Shown one piece after another: positions 1-43,078 of a stretch of 43,078 nt of DNA (position 1 is the first letter of the stretch; every line of letters begins with the position of its first letter). Below the pieces are notes generated by a model. The model searched no databases, had not been told where the DNA came from, and saw nothing but the letters and a program-made list of their open reading frames with translations. A program made the position numbers and the translations under genes. Source of the stretch: an uncultured Desulfobacteraceae bacterium (GTDB lineage Bacteria; Desulfobacterota; Desulfobacteria; Desulfobacterales; UBA5852); the NCBI GenBank assembly GCA_913060875.1, contig CAJXSL010000025.1, positions 1 through 43,078 of the forward strand, given 5' to 3'.

Positions 1-74
1 GCTCCCGGGCTTCAAACCCGGTGTGGGGCGTTAAAACCGTCCCGGGTGGGTTCGATTCCCATGCACTTCCGCCA
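1..74 (+). tRNA. selC: tRNA-Sec (UGA-decoding), 5' end outside window
   Basis: This is the 3' part of a selenocysteine tRNA. The anticodon arm is CCGGG-CTTCAAA-CCCGG, giving anticodon TCA. It is followed by a long variable arm (GGGGCGTTAAAACCGTCCC region), a T arm with GGTTCGATTCC, and an acceptor end TTCCG plus encoded CCA ending at 74. The long extra arm, TCA anticodon and G discriminator match the bacterial tRNA-Sec pattern. A T run at 75-81 follows and may end the transcript. The organism therefore probably makes selenoproteins, although none was recognised in this window. The 5' half lies upstream of the window. Confidence 0.88.
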
Positions 75-38004: not shown

Positions 38005-38038
38005 AAAAAGAAACCCCGCTACCTGCCGGCAACGGGGT
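38005..38038 (-). terminator. intrinsic terminator, PEP-CTERM operon II
   Basis: On the minus strand ACCCCGTTGCC-GGCA-GGTAGCGGGGT followed by TTCTTTTT. The 11-bp stem has G-T wobbles. It lies 30 bp after the stop of the 38068 gene and is nearly the same as the terminator at 40369. Confidence 0.88.
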
Positions 38039-38067
38039 ATCCCCTCCTAAAGCCTATACGTCAACTG

Positions 38068-38811
38068 TTACTTCTTGAATTTTTTGCGGCCGAATCCGGC
38101 CAAACCTACCAAGCCTAAACCCATTAGGACGACAGTGGAAGGTTCGGGGACAGGAGCAACGTCGATTGTATCAACAACTGACACGCTAAATATTTCGGAG
38201 ATACCGCCACCGAAACTAATGGTATGAGTACCAGCACTTAAGGGCTCTATCATTAACCAGTATCCATCTGATACGGCATCACCTGATGGCCCTGCCGGAA
38301 CGCCTAAAGGGTTGTTTAAAGCTGCGTCATAACTGAATATGGGGGACAGCTCACGGTAATCGAATAAATTTGGCACTGCCATGCCGTCAATCTCTGCGAA
38401 AAGATTATCAACTTCGCGAATAAGAGAATCTGCATAATCCCTTAAATCTTCTTCTGTAGGAGATCCGCCAAAAGATGATTCCGAGACAGAGACATTGATA
38501 AGTGGTACCAGCAAATATGTATCAATTGGTACAGAAAATGACCTTGTAGCTTCCCCACCAATAGTTCCAGCAACAAAAAAGACAGGGCCTGATTGATTGA
38601 TAGACGAATAGACACCTGTGGTATCAGTAAACGCATCATTTGGAATAGATTGCGAATATGCCCACTGCCACCACTCGGCAGTCCATTCACCGATTGTCCG
38701 CCCTTCAACTGTTGAACCTTGAGCTAACACTGTAGTTGCATTTGCTGGAGTAATACAAACCAATATAAACAGGCCAACGGCGAGCATCATTAGTACTCTA
38801 ATTTTTTTCAT
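38068..38811 (-). CDS. PEP-CTERM secreted protein (WWQW motif)
   Basis: The 247-aa product has a signal peptide (MKKIRVLMMLAVGLFILVCI, cleavage near ANA), a mature domain with TIGEWTAEWWQWAYSQSIPN near the start, and a PEP-CTERM tail PVPEPSTVVLMGLGLVGLAG then FGRKKFKK. The tail should be recognised by an exosortase (EpsH-like), which is not in this window, and delivers the protein to the surface or matrix. The EW(T/S)xxWWQW segment also occurs in other exported proteins of unknown function. A possible riboswitch lies upstream at 39007-39099. Confidence 0.9.
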   Translation of the reverse strand: MKKIRVLMMLAVGLFILVCITPANATTVLAQGSTVEGRTIGEWTAEWWQWAYSQSIPNDAFTDTTGVYSSINQSGPVFFVAGTIGGEATRSFSVPIDTYLLVPLINVSVSESSFGGSPTEEDLRDYADSLIREVDNLFAEIDGMAVPNLFDYRELSPIFSYDAALNNPLGVPAGPSGDAVSDGYWLMIEPLSAGTHTISFGGGISEIFSVSVVDTIDVAPVPEPSTVVLMGLGLVGLAGFGRKKFKK

Positions 38812-39123
38812 TTTATTTCCCTTTAAGTGATGGCCTTATCAAAAAGACACAATTTAGATGACAGCCTTTGAGCCAAAACCATGCGGAAGAAATTTGATTG
38901 GATATCCCATTGACCAACTCCTGCCCCATTTACTTTTTCTAAAAATTCAAAGCGAATCCAGCTTTCTTCTCCAAAAAGCATAAAAGCCGCAGTCGCCTCC
39001 AATTAAGGCAACCCGGCTTTCTCCCGTGGATCTGTGGCTACCGCCCCTGAGAGACCCGCAGCTTTCCGTCCCCACTTCACAGCGGGTTTGGCTTTTTCTT
39101 GAACGGATGTTGTAGGTGATCTG
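38812..39123. other. leader of the 38068 gene with riboswitch-like RNA A
   Basis: The interval holds riboswitch-like copy A and its terminator-like 3' part, then about 150 bp of AT-rich untranslated leader before the ATG at 38811. No separate promoter was identified, so the gene appears to be transcribed from operon II upstream. Confidence 0.5.
39007..39099 (-). promoter_or_regulatory. GEMM-like riboswitch candidate, copy A
   Basis: On the minus strand: GCCAAA, hairpin CCCGCU-GUGA-AGUGGG (GNRA loop), GGGACGGAAAGC, GGGUCU pairing with AGAUCC, and the 3' strand GCCGGGUUGCC. This is the order and text of the c-di-GMP-I (GEMM) aptamer family. The base I align to G20 is C. Directly after it, GCCGGGUUGCC can pair with GGCGACUGCGGC (11 bp, one bulged G) followed by UUUUAUGCUUUUU, giving a terminator that competes with the aptamer. 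It lies between two PEP-CTERM genes. Confidence 0.62.
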
Positions 39124-39771
39124 TTATCCTCTTATTTTTTTACGCCCTAAGCCGGCTAAACCGACCAATCCTAAACCCATCAAAACGATGGTGGAAGGTT
39201 CGGGGACAGGGGCTGGATTATTGTTGATAGAAGCTTGGAATACCCCTAACGGAATTTCATCAAAAATATTACCAAAGGCACTCACTTTCGTAGTAAAAAC
39301 CCAATCAAATCCAGAAAGGCCATAGAATTCTTCCAATATGGAATTTTTAACGTCAATCCCGTATCCTTCGAAATGGCTATTATAAACTTCCTCCCCATTA
39401 TTTAAGTAGGGCTCGATTGTCCACCCCCAACCTGCCAAGCTATTAAAATTTCCTGAAAGAAGAACGCCACTTTCAATTCCCAATTCAGGTACACTTCCTG
39501 TAATCGTAAATACGTTCGTTTCTGTTGAGAAATTTAATCGGCCATTAACTATACTCAAATCCACTCCACTGTTTATGGGAGCATCGTACGCATAAATAGT
39601 ATCTAAAATAATATCGCTACCGATACACCCTTCTGAGGTCGGGATGAGACTGATTTCACCACCATGATCTACATGGTCTACAAACCCGATAGTCGGAATC
39701 GCCAATACATTGCCTGCTACAAAGAATACGAATGAGAAGACAATACAAAATAAAAAATTTGTTTTTTTCAA
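39124..39771 (-). CDS. PEP-CTERM secreted protein
   Basis: The 215-aa product starts at TTG 39771 (MKKTNFLFCIVFSFVFFVAG), with a G-rich stretch just upstream; there is no ATG alternative before the signal peptide. After cleavage near VLA-IP the mature part is a beta-rich domain of unknown function. The tail is PVPEPSTIVLMGLGLVGLAG then LGRKKIRG, a PEP-CTERM sorting signal. Riboswitch-like copy B sits upstream and copy A 25 bp downstream. Confidence 0.88.
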   Translation of the reverse strand: MKKTNFLFCIVFSFVFFVAGNVLAIPTIGFVDHVDHGGEISLIPTSEGCIGSDIILDTIYAYDAPINSGVDLSIVNGRLNFSTETNVFTITGSVPELGIESGVLLSGNFNSLAGWGWTIEPYLNNGEEVYNSHFEGYGIDVKNSILEEFYGLSGFDWVFTTKVSAFGNIFDEIPLGVFQASINNNPAPVPEPSTIVLMGLGLVGLAGLGRKKIRG

Positions 39772-39895
39772 ATCCCCCCCTTTTTTTAATTAATAGGTAT
39801 CGGTTAATGCGCTTTTTTATTTTATATAGGCATCAACGAATGAAACATAGACGGCCACAGAGGATTCAATAAAAGCAGGCGTCACCTGTAGCCAC

Positions 39896-39983
39896 GGCAG
39901 CTTGGCTTTCTCCCGTGGTCTGTGGCTATCGCCCCTGAAAGACCCGTGGCTTTCCGTCCCTATTTATTGGTGGGCTTGCCTTT
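39896..39983 (-). promoter_or_regulatory. GEMM-like riboswitch candidate, copy B
   Basis: Minus strand: GGCAAGCC, a weak CCC...GGG hairpin, GGGACGGAAAGCCACGGGUCU, and 3' strand GCCAAGCUGCC. Of the four copies this one fits the GEMM consensus best at the ligand-contacting region (GGC at the 5' strand, GGAAAGCC). Its 5' end lies about 18 nt downstream of the -12 element of the sigma-54 promoter, so it should be the first part of the operon II transcript. The terminator form is weaker here (CAGG-UGACG-CCUG followed by CUUUU). Confidence 0.62.
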
Positions 39984-40000
39984 ATTCACAGCACCTTCGT

Positions 40001-40015
40001 GCAATATATGAACCA
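40001..40015 (-). promoter_or_regulatory. sigma-54-type promoter, operon II
   Basis: On the minus strand TGGTTCATATATTGC: GG, exactly 10 nt, then GC, with flanking TGG and TTGCA matching the -24/-12 consensus TGGCACN5TTGCA in most places. Transcription would start about 12 nt further on, right before riboswitch-like copy B. Activation by an enhancer-binding protein is expected (EPS/PEP-CTERM gene sets often use PrsR-type regulators). Confidence 0.55.
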
Positions 40016-40368
40016 TATTTAGGAAAGATTGTCGAATACCGTATTGTTAAGATATTAAGATAATTTACGGTACTTCATAAAATTTTTGGGGCATATGAAC
40101 TATGAAACCAGTTTCACAATCATTTTTAACTTTTTGGGCACTCTATTACTCACAGTAGCTCAGTTTTCCTGAGTTTTTATGTAAAATCACCGTTGCAACC
40201 ATACCATCGTCCAAGCTGTCCTTTCATTGCTTCAGCATGAAATTTACCCGCCAGCCAAAAATTCACTCTGGCAAAACCACCGCCCACACCGCCCCCACCG
40301 TCCAACCCGCTAAGCTTTTGAGTTTTCTTTTATCGTCTTCTAAAGAAGCATCCTTGCCATATATGGCC

Positions 40369-40401
40369 AAAAAGAAACCCCGCCACCCAATGGCAACGGG
40401 G
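40369..40401 (-). terminator. intrinsic terminator, PEP-CTERM operon I
   Basis: On the minus strand CCCCGTTGCC-ATTG-GGTGGCGGGG followed by TTTCTTTTT. The 10-bp stem includes G-T wobbles. It lies 37 bp after the stop of the 40438 gene. It is very similar to the terminator at 38005. Confidence 0.88.
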
Positions 40402-40437
40402 TTTTCCCTCCTGAATTGAAGCCGATATGCGGACTGC

Positions 40438-41130
40438 TTATTTCTTGAATTTTTTCCGACCAAAACCCGCCAAACCAGCGAGGCCTAAACCCATTAGGAC
40501 CATAGTAGAGGGTTCGGGGACTGGGGCCACTTGATTCTGTCTCCACACCCCCCAATCAACGTTGCCCCACGAATAGTCAACTCTTCCCATATCATATTTC
40601 GCTATATCATTGTTATTTACATCACATTCGTAGATCACCCCCGTGTCCCAGTAAAATCCCGGACTGGGATTATGAACTGTTCTCATGAAGCCTGTATAAT
40701 GGTCAGCCTCTCCTGGCGGTACAGTGAGGCCATAGACGGATTCGCCGGTATTTACCCTAAAGTCCCAGGCTTCAATTAAACCATTGCTTACAACAGCGAA
40801 TATTGTACCGCCTCCCCCTGTATCGCTTGAAATGGTTTGTCGACCATCATTGAAGGACCAACTGGCCAGGTATGGGGCCAGGTCGAGGAAGCCACCGCCA
40901 CCCACCACGCCCCCATCTGGCAATAAGCCATCATTTGTCACCAACCTTACTGTCATCCGATCAGCAATGGTGTATGTACCGGCGGGAGGATTGTCATCTT
41001 CAAACCAATTAAAATTTGCCCCTGTGTAATTGTATTCATAGGGCACAGCATCTGCTGCAACAGGTGTCAATAAGAGACCACAGGCCAAGAATGCGAGTAT
41101 CATCTTCCCAAGAAACAGAAAAGTCTTCAT
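40438..41130 (-). CDS. PEP-CTERM secreted protein
   Basis: The 230-aa product has a signal peptide (MKTFLFLGKMILAFLACGLL, cleavage near ADA-VP). A beta-rich mature region includes a long Gly run (VVGGGGFLDLAPYLAS) and TGFMRTVHNPSPGFYWDTG. The tail is PVPEPSTMVLMGLGLAGLAG then FGRKKFKK. It is the last gene of operon I. Riboswitch-like copy C lies 54 bp upstream of its ATG. Confidence 0.9.
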   Translation of the reverse strand: MKTFLFLGKMILAFLACGLLLTPVAADAVPYEYNYTGANFNWFEDDNPPAGTYTIADRMTVRLVTNDGLLPDGGVVGGGGFLDLAPYLASWSFNDGRQTISSDTGGGGTIFAVVSNGLIEAWDFRVNTGESVYGLTVPPGEADHYTGFMRTVHNPSPGFYWDTGVIYECDVNNNDIAKYDMGRVDYSWGNVDWGVWRQNQVAPVPEPSTMVLMGLGLAGLAGFGRKKFKK

Positions 41131-41183
41131 TATCTATCGCCCCTTTCCTCTACAATTAAATTGAATACCTGTTATATGAACTA

Positions 41184-41275
41184 GGCAACCCGGCTTTCTC
41201 CCGTAGGTCTGTGGCAATCGCCCCTGAGAAACTCGTGGTTTTCCGTCCCCGCTTAGCAGCGGGTTTGGCTTTTTC
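41184..41275 (-). promoter_or_regulatory. GEMM-like riboswitch candidate, copy C
   Basis: Minus strand: GCCAAA, hairpin CCCGCU-GCUA-AGCGGG, GGGACGGAAAACC, and 3' strand GCCGGGUUGCC; its loop is GCUA rather than GNRA, and the middle arm (GAGUUU/AGACCU) pairs less well. Unlike A and D it has no terminator after it. It sits 30 nt after one PEP-CTERM gene and 54 nt before the next, so control could be at translation. Confidence 0.55.
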
Positions 41276-41304
41276 TTGCAATGTAAAATTTTATGAAATC
41301 AGCT

Positions 41305-41871
41305 TTACCGGTTCATTCTTTTCCTGCCATAACCGGCTAAACCGACCAAACCTAAGCCCATGAGGACTATGGAGGATGGTTCAGGGACTGGTGCGGTTTC
41401 GGCACTGATAGAAGCCTCATATGATGTGGCATACCAAAAATCAGAGAGTTCAACAGACGATGCATAAACGGAATAAGAGAAATCTGTAACTTCCAAAGTC
41501 TCTCGGTTCCATCTGAGCCAGAAATCGTTGGTACCAGGCATAATATATTCGATCCCTTCGGCCACGCCGCCGATAAGGTCCTCGTCTTCGTCATACGGTG
41601 ACGGTGATTCGTAGTCAATCTCAGATAGCAGGTAATTGTGCCCTCCAATGGTCAGATCGACCGAGATGAGGTAATCGATAGTTGCATTAACCGATGCAGC
41701 TTCCCAGGTGATAGTGCCTGAAACCGGATCATCGGGTGCTTCATTTCCATCCCAATCGACGAATCCAGAGGCTGAAAATTCCATGCTGATTGGTATAGCA
41801 TAGCTGTTTGTAAGCGTGCCAAAAACCAATAACAAGAATGCTACGGATACAATTACAAACACTTTTTTCAT
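41305..41871 (-). CDS. PEP-CTERM secreted protein
   Basis: The 188-aa product starts MKKVFVIVSVAFLLLVFGTL at ATG 41871 with GAGGAGG 7 nt upstream; the frame is open to 41955. Signal peptide cleavage near SYA-IP, an acidic mature part (DEDEDLIGGVAEGIEY) and the tail PVPEPSSIVLMGLGLVGLAG then YGRKRMNR. The gene lies between riboswitch-like copies D and C. Confidence 0.9.
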   Translation of the reverse strand: MKKVFVIVSVAFLLLVFGTLTNSYAIPISMEFSASGFVDWDGNEAPDDPVSGTITWEAASVNATIDYLISVDLTIGGHNYLLSEIDYESPSPYDEDEDLIGGVAEGIEYIMPGTNDFWLRWNRETLEVTDFSYSVYASSVELSDFWYATSYEASISAETAPVPEPSSIVLMGLGLVGLAGYGRKRMNR

Positions 41872-41955
41872 TCTCTCCTCCTCTCGATTTATAATAATAA
41901 ATATCTCAGCAAATGTCCGCCCAAAAAACAAAAAACCGAAGTCACCTATAACCAA

Positions 41956-42047
41956 GGCAACCCGGCTTTCTCCCGTGGATCTGTGGCTACCGCCCCTGAG
42001 AGACCCGTGGTTTTCCGTCCCCGCTTCGCAGCGGGTTTGGCTTTTTC
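41956..42047 (-). promoter_or_regulatory. GEMM-like riboswitch candidate, copy D
   Basis: Minus strand: GCCAAA, hairpin CCCGCU-GCGA-AGCGGG (GNRA loop), GGGACGGAAAACC, GGGUCU pairing with AGAUCC, and 3' strand GCCGGGUUGCC. The base aligned to G20 is C. A following GGUGACUUCGGU can pair with GCCGGGUUGCC (one bulged U), giving a terminator with UUUUUGUUUUUU. Copies A and D thus show the same switch with compensating base changes. It lies between the first two genes of operon I. Confidence 0.65.
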
Positions 42048-42076
42048 TTGCAATGCAAAATTTTATAAAATCAGCT

Positions 42077-42739
42077 TTACCGGTTCATTCTTTTCCGGCC
42101 ATAACCGGCTAAACCGACCAACCCTAAGCCCATCAGGACGATGGTGGAAGGTTCGGGGACTGGGGCAACATCAGATATGTTCGTCAGGATTAAATCGCTT
42201 TGCATAAGAATAGAAGATTCATTATTCCAGATATATTGCAATCCTTCGAAAGAAGCACCAACAATCCATTCTTCAATAAACAAACCTGCACCTATACTTA
42301 ATCTATCGTACATTGTAAGTAGGGCAAGATCGGTATCGACGGTTCCTGGCGTCCCCTGACCATATTCCTCTTCAACACCGTAATAGGTTATCAATGCATC
42401 AGAAGGCACGCTATTGTTCGTAAGAACTGTACCAGATATAAATTCAGCATAGAAGTAATCGAGATAGTTATCCGTATAAGGCTCGGGGCCATATCCATCT
42501 TCCATTATGTCCCTTGAGCCATCTGGTTGTAAAATGTACCCATCTGCATCAAAATCGATTAAAACCGTATAATCTATAGATGAACCTACCGAAAAACCTT
42601 GTACTTCTGCGATAGTTGCACCACCATCGGCAATAGATCTTACTGTTCCCTCAAAGGTATAGTATTGCGGAACCGCGTAGGAATTGGATAAAAAAACGAA
42701 AAGCAAGAAGAAGACGCATAAGAATAGCCGCTTAGACAT
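42077..42739 (-). CDS. PEP-CTERM secreted protein
   Basis: The 220-aa product has a signal peptide (MSKRLFLCVFFLLFVFLSNS, cleavage near SYA-VP), a mature beta-rich domain (YTFEGTVRSIADGG; GSSIDYTVLIDFDADGY) and the tail PVPEPSTIVLMGLGLVGLAG then YGRKRMNR. AAGGAGGT precedes the ATG by 3 nt. It is the first gene of operon I. The sigma-54-type promoter lies 137 bp upstream. Confidence 0.9.
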   Translation of the reverse strand: MSKRLFLCVFFLLFVFLSNSYAVPQYYTFEGTVRSIADGGATIAEVQGFSVGSSIDYTVLIDFDADGYILQPDGSRDIMEDGYGPEPYTDNYLDYFYAEFISGTVLTNNSVPSDALITYYGVEEEYGQGTPGTVDTDLALLTMYDRLSIGAGLFIEEWIVGASFEGLQYIWNNESSILMQSDLILTNISDVAPVPEPSTIVLMGLGLVGLAGYGRKRMNR

Positions 42740-43061
42740 GGGACCTCCTTTTGAAGGGATAGGTGGGCATTGTAGCCTGTGAATTCCAAATTAACGCATT
42801 CACTGAAATGCCCATAGAAATGTGTATGTGCCGGCAGCGAGCCATTGCGGCCCAAGGAAGGAAGCTATATATAACGCAAAAAGTATGCCGGAAACTGGCT
42901 AAGTTGCTGATATCAGATTTATAAAACAATCGAGGAGGGATAAGTTTATAAGTAAAAAACTTAGGCCAGACGAAATATGAAACATATTACATATAATTTT
43001 AGGAGGGTGTACAAATAACTGTGTAACTGGTTATCTATAATCTTACTCAAAGGAGCAGGAG
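42740..43061. other. divergent regulatory region of operon I
   Basis: No gene is seen. It contains the sigma-54-type promoter of operon I (42876-42891) and a leader with a GCATTTCA-GTGAATGC-type hairpin near 42797-42812. On the plus strand a ribosome binding site leads into a gene starting at 43062. No GEMM-like RNA was found here, unlike the leader of operon II. Confidence 0.5.
42876..42891 (-). promoter_or_regulatory. sigma-54-type promoter, operon I
   Basis: On the minus strand CGGCATACTTTTTGCG: GG, exactly 10 nt, then GC. The CGGCAT and TTTGC boxes fit the -24/-12 consensus TGGCAYRN4TTGCW closely. It is 137 bp upstream of the first PEP-CTERM gene. It pairs with the promoter at 40001 for operon II. 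Confidence 0.55.
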
Positions 43062-43078
43062 ATGACCAGTAAGAAATC
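43062..43078 (+). CDS. start of a gene running off the window
   Basis: ATG ACC AGT AAG AAA follows AAGGAG at 7 nt. Only five codons (MTSKK) are visible, so nothing about the product can be said. It is divergent from the PEP-CTERM operon I. Confidence 0.35.

Follow-up and report, generated by a model that had tools for sequence, protein, structure and literature searches.

The window analysed here is the whole of contig CAJXSL010000025.1 (contig C25 of assembly GCA_913060875.1; 43,078 nucleotides (nt)) from an uncultured Desulfobacteraceae bacterium, whose 5.88 Mb genome is 99.7% complete. Towards its end lie two minus-strand operons, A and B, with five PEP-CTERM genes, sigma-54-like promoters and RNAs of the cyclic di-GMP (c-di-GMP)-I riboswitch class. 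The best reading, and in our judgement a fairly probable one, is that these are sigma-54 PEP-CTERM operons with predicted serial c-di-GMP ON gates, placed mostly between the genes. Such control at two levels had been proposed in an earlier, sequence-only reading of this DNA; what supports it best are covariance-model matches, two ON-type terminators and sigma-54-like sites preceded by a shared dyad, and it is weakened by the decay of one RNA (RS0) and the lack of a terminator in another (RS2).

All five open reading frames (ORFs) score above the Pfam PF07589 cut-off of 20.7 (29.5–32.9 bits), confirming the five minus-strand PEP-CTERM genes that had been read from the letters. The ORFs of operon A span 42739–40438 and encode proteins of 220 (gene 1, 42077..42739), 188 (gene 2, 41305..41871) and 230 amino acids (aa; gene 3, 40438..41130); those of operon B span 39771–38068 and encode proteins of 215 (gene 4, 39124..39771, TTG start) and 247 aa (gene 5, 38068..38811). 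The matching end terminators, likewise anticipated, were located on the same strand at 40404–40375 (operon A) and 38038–38013 (operon B) by a consensus terminator scan, in which strong terminators are confined to operon ends and riboswitch interiors. Both marks of exosortase substrates are present: a PF07589 tail above cut-off in five of five proteins, and an exosortase in the genome, XrtD (595.8 bits against a cut-off of 400), which sits with PrsT within an exopolysaccharide cluster.

An Rfam covariance-model search placed three of the four RNAs above the gathering cut-off, which is 59 for the scores of RS1 and RS3 and 35 for those of RS2 and RS0. RS1 (41952..42050, minus strand; RF03167, 69.2 bits) lies between genes 1 and 2, RS2 (41181..41279, minus; RF01051, 50.4 bits) between genes 2 and 3, and RS3 (39003..39101, minus; RF03167, 63.7 bits) between genes 4 and 5, each starting 22–26 nt past the preceding stop codon. 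RS0, which lies in the leader of operon B (39893..39990, minus) and is a degenerate RNA resembling the c-di-GMP-I class, scores 27.1 bits, has a broken P2 helix and loop, and reaches 60.2 bits only under a model built partly from RS0 itself. The proposal of GEMM-like RNAs in the leader or between the genes was thus borne out for RS1, RS2 and RS3 and failed for the leader copy, and four equal GEMM copies are ruled out by the sub-cut-off score of RS0. What the two operons do share, as had been claimed, are GG-N10-GC sites and end terminators; the RNA parts are unequal, with no aptamer ahead of gene 1, RS0 degenerate and RS2 terminator-free.

By eye in the alignment, the four window copies all retain the ligand-pocket letters G20, A47 and C92 (in what we take to be Vc2 numbering), so that the predicted ligand is c-di-GMP and not cyclic GMP-AMP (cGAMP). 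Covariation was assessed on 18 of the genome's 20 copies, two long-loop copies being excluded. In this alignment 95.1% of cells pair and both sides have changed in 11 of 17 pairs, and shifting the partner by one column leaves 46–55% paired; none of 500 shuffles matched the real covariation on four of five measures, and three of 500 did so on the fifth, in a test biased towards the structure, for which this very alignment was the source. An extended P3 arm, which bears a small hairpin of its own, is common to six PEP-linked copies of this genome and two in a relative of the same genus, G003.

RS1 and RS3 are each followed by a terminator (41931..41970, minus, −17.2 kcal/mol, by folding and consensus scan; and 38983..39020, minus, −22.2 kcal/mol, by folding) whose 5′ strand is the 3′ strand of the aptamer. 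The full fold containing the terminator is better than the aptamer and the downstream sequence folded separately by 10 kcal/mol for RS1 and by 15 for RS3. This use of the aptamer strand by a terminator, expected of an ON switch, is absent from RS2 and weak in RS0 (−9.0 kcal/mol). For RS1 and RS3 the strand-sharing folds are observed, and we infer the ON direction from the layout of the pilM riboswitch discussed below. The 3′ end of RS2 pairs, in a weak fold, with nucleotides close to the ribosome site of gene 3, which is only a hint that RS2 may act by translational control. Genome-wide, an aptamer-strand-sharing terminator follows seven of ten PEP-linked copies (−17 to −28 kcal/mol) and three of ten others; with p = 0.09 we rejected a rule by which PEP-linked switches are ON and the others not.

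On the reading that we prefer, an activator bound at a dyad 92 bp upstream would fire both promoters, and in operon A gene 1 would be expressed whenever the promoter fires. When c-di-GMP is absent, the 3′ strand of RS1 would pair downstream and form a terminator ahead of gene 2; when it is present, the aptamer would retain that strand and the polymerase would continue. RS3 would gate gene 5 as RS1 gates gene 2, RS2 would be a duplicate of RS1 cut off at the end of the aptamer, either inert or acting on translation, and RS0 would be a decayed copy. The mix of secreted proteins would thus shift with c-di-GMP: gene 1 would come first, possibly together with gene 4, and genes 2, 3 and 5 would follow only at high c-di-GMP. 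If this is true, c-di-GMP would control exosortase substrates directly through RNA, once sigma-54 has made an all-or-none decision; a biofilm messenger would be linked to the PEP-CTERM surface proteins, which are still poorly understood; and the intergenic gates would let a single promoter serve every protein at a c-di-GMP threshold of its own.

The GG-N10-GC sites noted earlier were located, on the minus strand, at 42891–42875 before operon A (CCGGCATACTTTTTGCG, score 13.5) and at 40016–40000 before operon B (ATGGTTCATATATTGCA, score 12.7, weak alone). Measured against what a sigma-54 promoter should have (GG at −24 and GC at −12, N10 between them, and an upstream site), both operons have the spacing and an enhancer-like dyad, and the scores are modest. 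The dyads, TGTAATATGTTTCATA (42976..42991, minus) in operon A and TGAAACTGGTTTCATA (40101..40116, minus) in operon B, are each centred 92 bp upstream of the sigma-54-like 17-mer. This shared dyad is better promoter evidence than the GG-N10-GC sites, which are not convincing alone, and it suggests that one activator is probably common to both operons.

Four loci, compared by eye, supplied the dyad pattern TGWAAC-N2-GTTWCATA, and for them only the spacing counts as evidence: 92 bp from dyad centre to site for operon A, for operon B and for contig C10 of G003, and 91 bp for contig C13 of the source genome. Five genomes of the genus were scanned and yielded 35 places, 30 of them with loci, of which 25 were held out. 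Three of these 25 have a site scoring at least 12.5 exactly 91–92 bp downstream (p = 7e-6, per-position background), and four reach that score at a different spacing. The three are on contigs C3 (a PEP-CTERM gene) and C1 (position 1077919) of the source genome and on C42 of G003 (a PEP-CTERM gene); another PEP-CTERM locus of the source genome, on C4, has the dyad pattern and lacks the 92-bp spacing. At the C1 locus (G000:C1:1077919, minus strand; L313) the dyad, at 92 bp, stands before an unassigned 313-aa ORF just upstream of an operon of an aptamer and three PEP-CTERM genes.

In operon A the slot that holds the aptamer in other leaders is taken by a conserved 30-nt element, CTTGRGCYGCAATGGCTCGMTGCCGGCACA (42827..42856, minus). 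In three PEP-CTERM leaders, those of operon A, G000:C3:205193 and G003:C42:198139, it comes directly after the sigma-54-like site. Because they share this element, the C3 and C42 loci and operon A may owe their similarity to common descent and so not be independent; the DNA between dyad and promoter has nonetheless diverged. The element gave no Rfam match at E up to 10 and occurs at seven places in six of 291 genomes, three of them mismatch-free and all in the genus, four with two mismatches each. It could be a regulatory RNA or a protein site.

The genome has 20 c-di-GMP-I RNAs, namely 19 genome-search matches (18 above cut-off) and the leader copy RS0, and 21 PEP-CTERM genes. Since ten of the 20 RNAs directly precede a PEP-CTERM gene, the association between the two is real and beyond chance. 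A sigma-54-like site scoring at least 12.7 lies within 100 nt upstream of all seven PEP-linked aptamers in leader position and of none of the ten non-PEP aptamers (p = 5e-5), among which the score is at most 12.0. Strong sigma-54-like sites also precede some aptamer-free PEP-CTERM genes (15.2 on C15, 15.0 on C4).

Units of an aptamer and a PEP-CTERM gene recur beyond this genome, G003 having them on contigs C24 and C10. The relatives' aptamers occupy 114 distinct places, of which ten precede genes with strict PEP tails and two more precede VPVPA tails, a proportion that is no rate, as some loci were chosen because a PEP-CTERM gene adjoined. Among the matches listed from two 96-genome scans, judged by eye, at least five aptamer–PEP pairs are on the same strand (G065, G080 twice, G083 and G097), and in others the directions differ (for example G035 and G094). 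In G040, from another family of the order, locus L155 has the serial plan of aptamer, gene, aptamer, gene, with terminators of the same kind after both aptamers (by eye), the first aptamer being weak at 17 bits. The closest named DNA among the matches listed is JAHLLS010000004.1 (Deltaproteobacteria bacterium isolate MAG130), 84–91% identical to parts of an aptamer–PEP unit on C8 of the source genome. Aptamers also cluster in other genomes: six of the c-di-GMP-I class lie within about 520 nt at G014:C109:691-1207 (L073), four are clustered on C102 of G044, and several occur on C75 and C79 of G022.

An aptamer pattern with an upstream TTGC gave at least 120 matches in at least 117 loci of GTDB. 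Among the 120 listed, a PEP-type gene follows nine of the 34 scoring at least 13 and one of the 86 below (p = 4e-5); 27 of these matches have an open-ended ORF or none, and the low-scoring group includes many taxa that probably have no PEP-CTERM genes, a taxon bias. For the delta-proteobacterial records among them, judged from record titles that are known for 80 of the 117 loci, the counts are six of 12 against one of ten (p = 0.06), and eight of 12 when two variant tails are included (p = 0.01).

Several findings weigh against the reading of gated sigma-54 operons. Across the order, sites scoring at least 12.5 are found before five of ten aptamers linked to PEP-CTERM genes and before 25 of the 104 others (p = 0.08), where 22 of the 104 have an ORF that leaves the locus and six have none, so that their PEP status is uncallable. 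At a score of at least 14 the figures are two of ten and 16 of 104, and we rejected the idea that the pairing of site and aptamer is PEP-specific in the order; as a pattern of predicted elements, sigma-54 plus c-di-GMP-I is a wider theme. Strong sigma-54-like sites stand before aptamers of other, often large, genes at L047, L053, L100, L105, L109, L113, L119, L120 and L129. The score matrix, moreover, is of our own making, with thresholds set after the scores had been seen. As to the RNAs, complete gates are only two of four, RS0 being degenerate and RS2 terminator-free; the consensus scan reports the RS1 terminator and not that of RS3; and the RS3 aptamer alone is not aptamer-shaped at minimum energy. 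A further sigma-54-like site (41924–41908, minus, score 14.0) stands downstream of the RS1 terminator and ahead of gene 2, where it could allow transcription to bypass RS1.

That last site also speaks for an alternative in which every gene that follows an aptamer forms a separate transcription unit headed by a leader riboswitch, tight packing mimicking an operon and the internal promoters going undetected; so do two aptamer–PEP units on C8 of the same genome, each of which has its own sigma-54-like site (14.2 and 15.0). We nevertheless think separate units unlikely, as the internal aptamers begin only 22–26 nt past the preceding stop, RS1–RS3 have no sigma-54-like site in the 100 nt upstream (best scores 10.3–10.8), sigma-70-like sites show no excess (eight found against 10.5 expected), and strong terminators occur only at operon ends and in riboswitches. 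The internal aptamers might instead be passive remains of a duplication of PEP tail plus aptamer that have lost regulation, as the near-identity of the junctions described below, the missing expression platform of RS2 and the decay of RS0 would allow; this seems to us somewhat less probable still, given that the terminators of RS1 and RS3 differ and yet are equally well formed against the aptamer strand, that P2 pairs covary across the genome's copies, and that L155 has the same serial plan with platforms.

We give the least credence, rating it improbable, to the view that the promoters are not sigma-54-dependent, the GG-N10-GC sites having arisen by chance and an ordinary sigma factor reading the operons. 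The scores lend it something, for random 105-nt stretches reach the 12.7 of operon B in 6.6% of cases, the range being 5–7% when the 12.8 of three other PEP leaders is included. So does the search for PrsR (TIGR02915), which found no protein in the genome above the curated cut-off (best 444.6 against 502.6 bits): of 114 matches to the model 61 exceed 100 bits and none reaches the cut-off, the best protein scores higher to NtrC, and its adjoining kinase, to which the PrsK scoring was confined, has 88.8 against 300. By this family test the predicted activator of the window operons is not PrsR. Chance is at odds, however, with the contrast of seven of seven against none of ten in the genome, with a dyad at a fixed 91–92 bp, with the lack of a sigma-70-like excess and with the known sigma-54 control of PEP-CTERM genes elsewhere (PMC1569441, PMC9850573, PMC3333781). 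The genome has one RpoN. GGDEF domains are found above cut-off at 21 places, two pairs of which look like fragments of a single protein.

The putatively gated, sigma-54-type operons retain traces of how they may have been built. The junction of genes 1 and 2 and that of genes 2 and 3 are 91% identical over 220 bp, identity being 0.83–0.97 in windows whose start lies between 42154 (PEP tail) and 41974 (aptamer end) and dropping on either side, and without their tails the protein bodies are otherwise dissimilar (the closest pair, genes 1 and 2, reaching 31% over 77 residues). This points to a duplicated unit made of PEP tail plus aptamer and ending where the platform starts, and RS2 would lack a terminator because the copied unit stops there. 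A more general scheme, which we put forward tentatively and think possible rather than likely, is a c-di-GMP ladder, in which an ON gate between successive genes of a sigma-54 operon sets the mix, and not only the amount, of matrix proteins, and in which rungs arise from copied PEP-CTERM tail and aptamer beside unrelated bodies. Elsewhere in the window, a tRNA-Sec at 1–70 (plus strand) is truncated by the contig start; the contig end is probably a repeat, because 43002–43078 is letter-identical to C10:1-77.

Each layer has precedents. For 99 of 167 proteobacterial PEP-CTERM genes a sigma-54 motif upstream was described in 2006 (Haft, PMC1569441), Aquincola pepA is RpoN-dependent (PMC9850573), and the Desulfovibrio vulgaris (D. 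vulgaris) response regulator DVUA0057 binds ahead of its five predicted PEP-CTERM targets (PMC3333781). As in the PrsK–PrsR/sigma-54 systems, the PEP-CTERM genes here stand behind predicted −24 GG/−12 GC elements with a candidate upstream activator motif, and exosortase and PrsT are in the genome. The dyad end, RTTWCATA, is similar to the last letters of Haft's motif 1 (17 nt in all, with TTTACA as its close, the part compared), and the dyad stops about 84 nt before the 17-mer, the spacer given by Haft being 62.8 (standard deviation 10.6, maximum 92; PMC1569441). Haft's operons, by contrast, are mostly single-gene and the accessible text mentions no riboswitch, whereas there is an RNA layer here and no PrsR above cut-off.

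For that RNA layer, c-di-GMP riboswitches beside PEP-CTERM genes are known from Methylophaga nitratireducenticrescens GP59, where an 18-kb stretch contains four, each beside a PEP-CTERM-type gene, and Ribo5–7 are spaced about 1 kb apart by the tabulated coordinates (PMC12530212). GP59 belongs to a distant genus and is known from a table; the accessible text does not contain the word sigma. The pilM riboswitch of Geobacter metallireducens (GEMM-Ib, sensing cGAMP) is an ON switch in which the terminator captures the strand of the aptamer together with the ligand-pairing C (PMC9262584); RS1 and RS3 resemble it in that the terminator uses the aptamer's own strand, so that aptamer and terminator are mutually exclusive. 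The window copies differ from it in keeping the G that predicts c-di-GMP. Tandem c-di-GMP-I riboswitches are common and are defined as lying within one intergenic region (PMC9481103, PMC12452182). The window operons would likewise have similar switches in series on one transcript. Unlike such tandems, which serve one gene or operon from one intergenic region, they have one aptamer per gap with whole genes in between, outside the contiguous definition of PMC12452182, and the number of predicted gates differs from gene to gene. In the accessible open-access literature we recognised no paper that combines both layers or places such gates between the genes of one operon. The earlier claim of novelty thus stands, within that literature, for the combination with intergenic gates and falls for the layers taken separately, each of which is in print (PMC1569441, PMC12530212). 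Serial c-di-GMP gates inside sigma-54 PEP-CTERM operons look like an apparently new arrangement of known parts.

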